Source of the DNA: Brevibacillus laterosporus DSM 25
Lineage (GTDB): Bacteria; Bacillota; Bacilli; Brevibacillales; Brevibacillaceae
DNA length: 64,000 nt
Direction of reading: 5' to 3'
Assembly: GCF_002706795.1 (NCBI RefSeq)
Contig: NZ_CP017705.1
Coordinates: 1,864,001-1,928,000, forward strand
In this document: one piece after another, positions 56,721 through 58,857 of the stretch
How the letters are laid out: each line of letters opens with the position of its first letter
How positions within the stretch are numbered: the stretch's first letter is position 1
The notes under the pieces: generated by a model
Told to the model about the DNA's origin: nothing
Databases searched by the model: none
What the model saw: the letters and a program-made list of their open reading frames with translations, nothing else
Translations under genes and position numbers: made by a program

Positions 56721-57203
56721 ATGACACAGAAAAAACCAAGCATATTATCCTCCATAGTATTATTCCTAGTAATAGTAGCTCTTTTTTCGTCGTCAGGTAT
56801 TCTTTTTCCAAGTGACCAAATCTGGTATAACACCCTTGCAGAGCCTGAGTGGACTCCCCCAAGTAAAGTGATTGATATCATATGGTTTATATTATACGCA
56901 CTGATTGCTCTCACAGTCGTTGTATTACAAAAAACCGTTGGATTAGATAACCTAAACCACTCTTGGTATCTGTTATTTGCGATTAACTACGTGCTCAATC
57001 AAGCTTATACCTTTTTCCTGTCTATTCAAAAGGACTTATCGTTAGCCTTTTATGATTGTCTGGCTACCGCAATATCGACCCTGCTATTGCTATTGTACAC
57101 AGGAAAATACTCACGCTGGGCAGCACTGTTACTCATTCCGTATCTCCTTTGGTCCAGTCTAACGGTATATATGTCATGGGTTATTTATCAAATAAATCTC
57201 TAA
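56721..57203 (+). CDS. tspO: TspO/MBR family membrane protein
   Basis: A 160-residue five-helix membrane protein. LAEPEWTPPSKVIDIIWFIL carries the conserved P-W-PP motif after the first helix, and FAINYVLNQAYTFFL corresponds to the ligand-site helix region. TspO proteins bind porphyrins and related ligands; a function in this host is not known. ATG follows AAAAGGAGG. It diverges from the aminopeptidase gene. Confidence 0.9.
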   Translation: MTQKKPSILSSIVLFLVIVALFSSSGILFPSDQIWYNTLAEPEWTPPSKVIDIIWFILYALIALTVVVLQKTVGLDNLNHSWYLLFAINYVLNQAYTFFLSIQKDLSLAFYDCLATAISTLLLLLYTGKYSRWAALLLIPYLLWSSLTVYMSWVIYQINL

Positions 57204-57212
57204 AAGACTGTC

Positions 57213-57241
57213 TTGCACATCTATATAAAACCTGATAGAAT
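57213..57241 (+). promoter_or_regulatory. Promoter of the MFS exporter leader
   Basis: TTGCAC, 17 nt, TAGAAT, about 10 nt past the tspO stop. The -10 is five of six, the -35 is weak. Predicted start near 57248, giving a leader of about 360 nt. Confidence 0.5.
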
Positions 57242-57284
57242 TTCATTTATCTAAAAATACCAAAAATAAAGGGGCATGTAACCA

Positions 57285-57320
57285 ATGAAATTCATCAGTA
57301 AAGAAGTTGTAGCTATCTAA
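57285..57320 (+). CDS. Leader peptide, 11 residues, of the MFS exporter
   Basis: ATG to TAA frame encoding MKFISKEVVAI. Ribosome site AAAGGGG ends 10 nt before the ATG. Bases 57294-57306, inside the frame, are perfectly complementary to 57384-57396. A role as the translated sensor of an attenuator is inferred; no homologous peptide is known to me. Confidence 0.65.
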   Translation: MKFISKEVVAI

Positions 57321-57383
57321 TCTACATGTAGCAAAGTCAAAAGGATATCAATTCTTTTTGGCATGCTTATTTAGATCGGCTTT

Positions 57384-57498
57384 CTTCTTTACTGATTGGA
57401 TTATACGGTTATCGGCCCCGTTTCTTACAAAAGAAGCGGCATTTATGCGATAAACTTGTATGTTAAGCAAGTTTTTCAGCATATAGTCGCTTTTTTTT
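57384..57498 (+). promoter_or_regulatory. Antiterminator/terminator switch before MFS exporter
   Basis: 57384-57396 pairs with the leader frame. A hairpin at 57415-57440 (GCC-GTTTCTT with AAGAAGC-GGC, CC bulge) shares bases 57436-57440 with the stem 57436-57448/57479-57490 (12 pairs, inner AAACTTG/CAAGTTT stem) that ends in a run of eight T. The two cannot coexist. Confidence 0.65.
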
Positions 57499-57606
57499 AT
57501 TAAAGCAGTAACACCCTAACAGGCCCATAAACCACTTTGTATTTCAAACGGGAAAGAGGAAAGCCAACTTACATATAACTCAGAAAACACGTTGGAGGTG
57601 CAACTC

Positions 57607-58857
57607 ATGAGTTGGCTATCTTGGGATTTAAACTTAAAGGTTCGTCTAATTGGAGAGACCTTATTTTCTATCTTTTTATGGATGTTCCTACCCTTCATGG
57701 CTCTGTTTTTTAGTGAAACTTTTGGTAAGGGTACAGCTGGGGTATTATTAATCATTCCCCCGTTACTTAGTGTTGTCATAAGCTTAGTTGGTGGTCGTAT
57801 TTCTGATAAAATGGGGCGTCGTCCCGTCATGCTAATTTCTGTAGCATTTGAGGCCCTCATGTTCCTCCTATTTTTTCTATCCTCTTCACCTTGGATGATG
57901 TACCTTGCTTTTGTCGGATTGAATCTGAGTGCCTCTCTGTATCAACCAGCTAGTGAGGCTATGATCGCAGATTTGACCAGCGAAGAGGACCGAAACTTTG
58001 TGTTTGCGATGTTCTACACAGCCATGAATTTAGGGGTTGTTATCGGCCCTTTGCTTGGTGCCTTTTTCTTTGTAAATTACCGTGATGAACTTATGCTAGC
58101 CTGTATGTTCGTGACTACTATCCTATTTGCCGTCTACTTTTTCGTTTTAAAAGAGACTAGACCAATGGCACCTCAGACTAACTCAGATTTAGTTGATCCA
58201 ACACCCAGTTGGAAAAAAGAATTACAATCCTTTCAAGTTATTTTTAGTGACAAGGTTTTTTCTCTTTACTTGTTAGCTGGTATTTTTGTGTTTATCGCTT
58301 TTTCTCAGATGGATCTTTACATGGCTATCTATATAAAGGAACATGTATTGAATCAACCTTTATTATGGTGGGGAGATTGGACCTTCTCTCTAGGTGGAAC
58401 GTCCTTTTTTGGTTGGATGATGGCTTTGAATGGATTCATGGTAGTAACTCTAACAGCAGCGATGACTCGCTGGATTAGTGCATGGAGCGATCAAAAAGCA
58501 TTTGTGATTGCATCGTTTCTAGGTGGGATGGGCTTTTTCATGATGGCTTTTAGTGAGAATATCTGGTTCCTATTCTTCTGTATGGCAGTTCTTACAATTG
58601 GAGAATTGATCCGCACCCCAATTGCACTAGGCTTCGTTAGTAAACTAGCCCCTGAACATCAACGCGGGCAGTATATGGGTGCCTCCACGCTTCAATTTAC
58701 AATTGGACGCATCTTGGCACCGTTACTCGTTACCTTATCTAATTGGTTTGGTCCACTAATCATTTTCGGGATCATTTTTGGTGTAGCAGTTCTAAGTATC
58801 CTATGCTATCAAAAGATGTTCACCATCATGGCCCGTAAAAATTCCGTCCAAGCTTAA
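57607..58857 (+). CDS. MFS exporter (drug:H+ antiporter-like)
   Basis: A 416-residue membrane transporter with about 12 helices. The loop 2-3 signature GGRISDKMGRRPVM is the major facilitator motif A; a helix near residue 140 (MNLGVVIGPLLGAFF) resembles antiporter motif C. ATG 57607 follows GGAGG at 8 nt; the frame to 57592 lacks a site. The DHA1-like shape and the attenuator-type leader suggest export of an antibiotic or other ribosome-active compound, but the substrate is not visible in the sequence. Confidence 0.88.
   Translation: MSWLSWDLNLKVRLIGETLFSIFLWMFLPFMALFFSETFGKGTAGVLLIIPPLLSVVISLVGGRISDKMGRRPVMLISVAFEALMFLLFFLSSSPWMMYLAFVGLNLSASLYQPASEAMIADLTSEEDRNFVFAMFYTAMNLGVVIGPLLGAFFFVNYRDELMLACMFVTTILFAVYFFVLKETRPMAPQTNSDLVDPTPSWKKELQSFQVIFSDKVFSLYLLAGIFVFIAFSQMDLYMAIYIKEHVLNQPLLWWGDWTFSLGGTSFFGWMMALNGFMVVTLTAAMTRWISAWSDQKAFVIASFLGGMGFFMMAFSENIWFLFFCMAVLTIGELIRTPIALGFVSKLAPEHQRGQYMGASTLQFTIGRILAPLLVTLSNWFGPLIIFGIIFGVAVLSILCYQKMFTIMARKNSVQA

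Follow-up and report, generated by a model that had tools for sequence, protein, structure and literature searches.

Leader Frame, Terminator, and Exporter Are Kept Together in the Family

Does the short open reading frame upstream of a multidrug exporter gene in Brevibacillus laterosporus DSM 25 place that gene under the control of a translating ribosome? The window, which is the whole stretch of 64,000 nt that was analysed, carries the gene at 57607..58857 on the plus strand, the strand of all features described below. It encodes an LmrP-like MFS multidrug exporter of 416 aa (Pfam MFS_1, 1.1e-45), and its ATG at 57607 lies 109 nt past the T run of a terminator, exactly where the initial annotation had placed it. 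The protein scored below every cut-off of NCBIfam. Its closest solved relative was LmrP (6t1z, E 1.6e-28; family profile, 5.3e-41), and the relation extended over the full length. D236 and E333 of the exporter (invariant) aligned with D235 and E327 of LmrP, matching two of the three catalytic carboxylates (D142, D235, and E327; PMC4634932), while an equivalent of D142 was absent from the alignment. LmrP exports lincosamides, macrolides, streptogramins, and tetracyclines, which are ribosome-targeting drugs (PMC4634932). The exporter studied here, from a genome of the laterosporus group, is 92% identical to its B. laterosporus counterpart, and an orthologue was present in 39/39 Brevibacillaceae genomes examined.

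Ahead of this orthologous exporter, a short leader frame within a hairpin of one type (P1), followed by a terminator, was found in all 39 genomes. A frame with its ribosome site upstream of the exporter is one of the features of leader-peptide attenuators of resistance genes. Although this anatomy is kept, the sequence of the leader region diverges beyond recognition across the family. The initial annotation had named absence of the frame or the pairing in relatives as refuting its proposal; in the relatives searched, both were retained, with covariation. These observations, together with the mutually exclusive pairings described below, are the basis on which we consider the region to be probably a ribosome-mediated attenuator of the LmrP-like exporter (probability about 0.8).

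The tspO gene stops just upstream on the same strand, at 57203, and the hairpin could be taken for the 3′ end of the tspO transcript, with a terminator and a frame that is there by chance. However, a promoter-like block separates tspO from the leader. This putative sigma-A promoter (57213..57241) consists of TTGCAC, a 17-nt spacer, and TAGAAT preceded by TG, with an expected transcript start at ∼57248. The TTGCAC-17-TAGAAT site was picked up by a consensus scan, yet the site count was no higher than in shuffles; a TTGCAY...TATTCT-like block stood at the equivalent place in most of the relatives inspected. Since frame, P1, and terminator are also kept together ahead of the exporter across the family, an origin as the tspO transcript end is very improbable.

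In 33 of 38 family genomes, a covariance model detected a single place, on the sense strand, with one weak additional match in G008; about 230 genomes from other families of the class gave zero matches. At the threshold used, the model missed the laterosporus group, B. daliensis, and B. fulvus, so that their membership rests on synteny and anatomy. Rfam scans of the window and its relatives gave no match above the gathering score, and searches of the open literature on Brevibacillus leader peptides and exporters found nothing relevant. The exporter paralogues that were read (43-48% identity) had no leader, with one exception in B. dissolubilis. This paralogue (L100), the only one seen with a leader in a P1-type hairpin, has its own peptide, VEAISVQIIS, with a GTG start, about 285 nt before the paralogue start. 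Leaderless LmrP-like paralogues of Brevibacillus and Bacillaceae share a different, strongly conserved element upstream, ATTAGTATAA-N13-ATAAGTCTATA, then ...ACCTGGCCGGGAA (element at L036-L039, L042, L045, L076, L079, L085, L096, L097, and L106).

The Leader Frame Is Buried in a Covarying Hairpin

The leader frame of the window (57285..57320) has 11 codons, ATG AAA TTC ATC AGT AAA GAA GTT GTA GCT ATC TAA, for the peptide MKFISKEVVAI. Its ribosome-binding site AAAGGGGC (57268..57275) lies within the base of P1, and GGGAG/GGGGC or near variants were found at the same place in relatives; frame and site are present where they had been claimed. The short counterparts in the 39 family genomes are mostly of 9 codons, with 10 in B. 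daliensis and 11 in the laterosporus group (overall 9-13). The 13-codon leader, at locus L007 of genome G029, is caused by a 1-nt insertion (MKFISKENCSHLI), and the exporter there carries a single in-frame TAG; these defects reflect either a pseudogene or a sequencing error.

P1 (57271..57419), the predicted anti-antiterminator, pairs the ribosome site and the leader codons with a 3′ arm that ends at 57419. At its base, GGGGC (57271-57275, within the leader ribosome site) pairs with GCCCC (57415-57419), and further in, GUAACC (57278-57283) pairs with GGUUAU (57407-57412). A 13-nt perfect complement between ATCAGTAAAGAAG (57294-57306) and CTTCTTTACTGAT (57384-57396) had been noted before. The complement is exact; as a unit it has other boundaries, being the middle fragment of the continuous and larger P1. 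The minimum free energy of 57248-57500 was -88.3 kcal/mol (RNAfold) versus -45.6 ± 4.5 in 200 dinucleotide shuffles (z -9.6, 0/200), and P1 of the window on its own gave a folding z of -9.2. Over 34 loci, the mean P1 folding z was -7.4 (range -11.6 to -0.4), B. fulvus being the exception in which P1 was no more stable than shuffles. In these 34 loci, 60-87% of the ORF nucleotides paired downstream in P1 and none paired internally.

The covariation of P1 was then measured. A MAFFT alignment that included the laterosporus group showed a poor consensus fold, and a 20-sequence alignment without this group worked. Among 20 distinct sequences, two-sided changes occurred in 26 of 52 P1 pairs versus 15.5 in shuffles (0/500 for most measures). 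On alignment A4, the covariation score was 0.267 versus 0.194 in shuffles and ≤0.121 in slid controls, and standard pairs made up 80% of the P1 cells, a percentage that is inflated because the structure was taken from the same sequences as tested; the two-sided changes are less affected. The covariation that had been suggested as a check is found in relatives for P1, of which the 13-nt pairing is a part.

The frame itself contained zero gaps in the 20-sequence alignment, with many in its flanks. Among 23 distinct 9-codon leaders, the ATG was invariant, three stop codons were in use, and Val5 changed synonymously (GTA/GTC/GTT/GTG). The invariant ATG, the interchangeable stops, and the gap-free frame are signs of translation, in bases that are also constrained by the P1 pairing, and we infer that the leader is translated. 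A strong conserved structure with a terminator, and the conserved CAGGAUG in the P1 3′ arm, would also suit a ligand-binding riboswitch or a protein-bound RNA in which the short frame is incidental. The absence of an Rfam match speaks against this, as does the retention of ribosome site, ATG, and frame even where the partner columns of the ATG vary; a frame without indels whose stop codons interchange would not be expected of it either. An RNA with an incidental frame is therefore improbable.

The peptide sequence of the leader is not conserved among relatives (e.g. MVFSVVIFA, MVISVVILA, MLLSVVSTI, MRPTGVSMM, MAIPAKSMI, and MHSSKKGAAL), and the 27 distinct leader peptides share no conserved macrolide arrest motif (R/K-X-R/K). 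Many leaders are rich in Val, Ile, and Leu (MVVSVVVFA), and Val5-Val6 is common, as might be seen in an attenuator of the trp/ilv type, where a scarce charged tRNA, perhaps that for valine, stalls the leader ribosome. However, the initiator Met is the only amino acid common to the whole set of leaders, Val is missing in 5 of the 27 distinct peptides (e.g. MHSSKKGAAL and MEFPAKLTM), and the Val codons fall in the best-conserved P1 pairs. The regulated gene, moreover, is a drug-type exporter, and control by amino-acid starvation seems quite unlikely.

A Ribosome on the First Leader Codons Is Predicted to Favor the Antiterminator

An intrinsic terminator between leader and gene was predicted in the window locus and in the relatives examined. 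The U-tailed terminator with eight T (57429..57498, -28.0 kcal/mol; U8 at 57491-57498) was found as the initial annotation had described, with other stem boundaries, the outer stem being 57429-57440/57486-57497. A preceding hairpin had been said to share five bases with this stem; the overlap holds and the number does not, because the 3′ arm of the hairpin (57431-57439) lies entirely inside 57429-57440. When the leader was covered by a ribosome, an antiterminator (57402..57462) was predicted, with an inner stem of 9 bp (57418-57426/57431-57439) and an outer stem (57402-57414/57448-57462). Its outer strand includes GGUUAU (57407-57412) of P1, and its 3′ strands are those of the terminator; therefore P1, antiterminator, and terminator exclude each other. 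B. brevis-type relatives form their antiterminator from CCGCUUCCGUCUUU and AAAGCGCAAGCGG, the latter belonging to the terminator.

The antiterminator pairing was better with cognate than with swapped partners (p about 0.04; 0.15 in an earlier set-up, in which the 5′ arm of the window was incomplete) and had a mean z of -1.35 against shuffles. The weakness of these statistics is partly due to the conservation of its strands within the main clade. A NusG pause motif TTNTTT was not found at a conserved position; the motif is present in many loci at a place that is not fixed. Two loci (L029 and L072) apparently have two tandem terminator-like hairpins after P1.

The effect of a ribosome on the leader was modelled by stepwise folding of the nascent RNA. 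The end state of the free RNA was P1 plus terminator, and covering the leader led to the antiterminator. Over 27 loci, the mean probability of the antiterminator before completion of the terminator rose from 0.17 in free RNA to 0.65 with the leader covered, with a gain in 24 of the 27 (Wilcoxon 1e-7), whereas a control mask on upper P1 gave 0.18, no rise. A 32-nt footprint was then moved along 24 loci. The antiterminator probability was 0.72 and 0.67 with the P-site at codons 1 and 2, 0.33 at codon 5, and 0.18, the same as free RNA, at codons 8-9. The modelling is thermodynamic and does not include ribosome bulk and kinetics; within it, a productive stall at initiation or just after is favored over a late, peptide-specific arrest. 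Such a stall would explain the variability of the peptide, and at codons 1-2 it would fit lincosamides or pleuromutilins, by analogy with vmlR (PMC9226507).

In the nascent RNA of the window locus, the gain was modest (0.58 free, 0.74 covered). The free full-length RNA of this locus formed the terminator with a probability of 0.95 and a hairpin at the exporter start with 0.98. With the leader covered, the values were 0.73 for the antiterminator, 0.25 for the terminator, 0.94 for a pairing between two elements on either side of the terminator (2:3, see below), and 0.00 for the start hairpin. The earlier proposal that a ribosome stalled on the leader changes which stem forms is thus supported in silico, the favored stem shifting from terminator to antiterminator. 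The order of switching, which the proposal had left open, is given a direction by the folding, in which the full antiterminator cannot form alongside P1 and is favored once a ribosome occupies the leader. At equilibrium, the terminator re-forms in the full-length RNA of most relatives despite a covered leader, indicating that the switch must be kinetic.

Given that start-region occupancy alone matters in the model and that leader peptides vary widely, the attenuator may sense a general slowing of initiation or early elongation, with the peptide irrelevant. The vmlR leader likewise tolerates variants of its uORF (PMC9226507). On the other hand, most leaders retain the nine-codon length and Val5-Val6, features that may also reflect constraint on the RNA. 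Such general sensing, which is a variant of the ribosome-mediated attenuator and not its opposite, appears possible, if on balance unlikely.

A Possible Second Layer Through Pairing Across the Terminator

The P1 3′ arm is complementary to the stretch between the terminator and the exporter ribosome site, as GGCUUUCUUCUUU/AAAGAGGAAAGCC at the window locus. Element 2 (GGCUUUCUUCUUU, 57378..57390) is part of the P1 3′ arm and is the predicted partner, in read-through RNA, of element 3 (AAAGAGGAAAGCCAACU, 57553..57569). The pairing is CUGCAGG/CCUGCAG in most relatives and GACAGGAUGUCAG/CUGACAUCCUGUC in B. dissolubilis. It prefers cognate partners (1/20000 permutations as good), with a mean z of -2.6 versus shuffles. 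At locus L104, GCATCCTGCAG, directly after the terminator, is exactly complementary over 11 nt to CTGCAGGATGC in the P1 3′ arm. At the window locus, element 3 can alternatively pair with the exporter start region at 57610-57617 (AGCCAACU/AGUUGGCU), a pairing in which L006/L007 show one compensatory change, and could thereby sequester the stretch that holds the exporter ribosome site GGAGG and the start region AGUUGGCU (57594..57617). The probability of the exporter ribosome site being unpaired increased from 0.38 in free RNA to 0.72 with the leader covered. Start-codon sequestration was also looked for family-wide and not found, with start accessibility shifting inconsistently outside the laterosporus group; thus a translational role is supported for that group only. 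The conserved pairing across the terminator suggests, in the folding models, a second layer of control, which stands out clearly in the laterosporus group alone.

Proposed Mechanism and Relation to Known Attenuators

In the mechanism that we propose, the leader would be translated fast when no ribosome stalls on it, and P1 would fold. Folded P1 would sequester the sequence that the antiterminator needs, so that the terminator would form and transcription would end near 57498. Messages that read through would, in the laterosporus group, also conceal the exporter start in a hairpin. With a ribosome held at the beginning of the leader, the P1 base could not close, the antiterminator would form first, and the polymerase would read through. 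In the laterosporus group, the released P1 3′ arm would then pair with element 3 and open the exporter start. As the cause of the stall, we infer a drug that targets the ribosome, is like those that LmrP-type pumps carry, and blocks either initiation or formation of the first peptide bonds; exporter expression would rise in response.

The same logic is known from the vmlR leader of Bacillus subtilis (PMC9226507), which has a uORF in an anti-antiterminator, an antiterminator, a terminator, a start-sequestering hairpin, and a read-through pairing that opens the start. There, a ribosome held at initiation was argued for lincomycin (PMC9226507), and such a position is also favored by the modelling of the Brevibacillus leader. 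However, the vmlR target is an ABC-F protein and the Brevibacillus target an MFS exporter, the vmlR uORF has three codons and a ribosome site that lies single-stranded ahead of its hairpin, whereas the Brevibacillus frame has 9-11 codons and its site is inside the hairpin, and no sequence relation was seen. The tlrB (yxjB) leader of B. subtilis (PMC6851288) also combines a nine-codon leader with a terminator and downstream start sequestration, but it has an RYR arrest motif at the peptide end, no identified antiterminator, and an rRNA methylase as its target. The mef(E)/mel leader of Streptococcus pneumoniae (PMC4335068) resembles the present one in having a short leader and a terminator before an MFS exporter; in contrast, its peptide MTASMRLR carries the macrolide motif and is unlike the Brevibacillus ones, and it resides on mobile elements. 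The precedent named by the initial annotation, bmrB before bmrCD in B. subtilis (PMC4191407), likewise has a multidrug exporter whose upstream terminator is governed by leader translation, except that the terminator lies within the bmrB coding region and the exporter is an ABC transporter.

Judged from sequence, the Brevibacillus leaders are a real and so far unregistered family, probably of the already known leader-attenuator kind. A further-reaching and rather doubtful idea is that the RNA switch, family-wide, senses only whether a ribosome occupies the first codons of its buried leader, with the peptide irrelevant, and controls both termination and translation of the LmrP-type pump through the terminator-spanning pairing; the natural inducer may then be a ribosome-active compound from Brevibacillus or its neighbours. 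These leaders, which were found neither in Rfam 15 nor in the open papers searched, add an RNA family to the leader attenuators of resistance genes. Because frame, hairpin, and antiterminator have changed in concert among the natural variants, the decisive position of the ribosome becomes directly testable. For Brevibacillus, the attenuator suggests that an LmrP-type pump is intrinsic and inducible.
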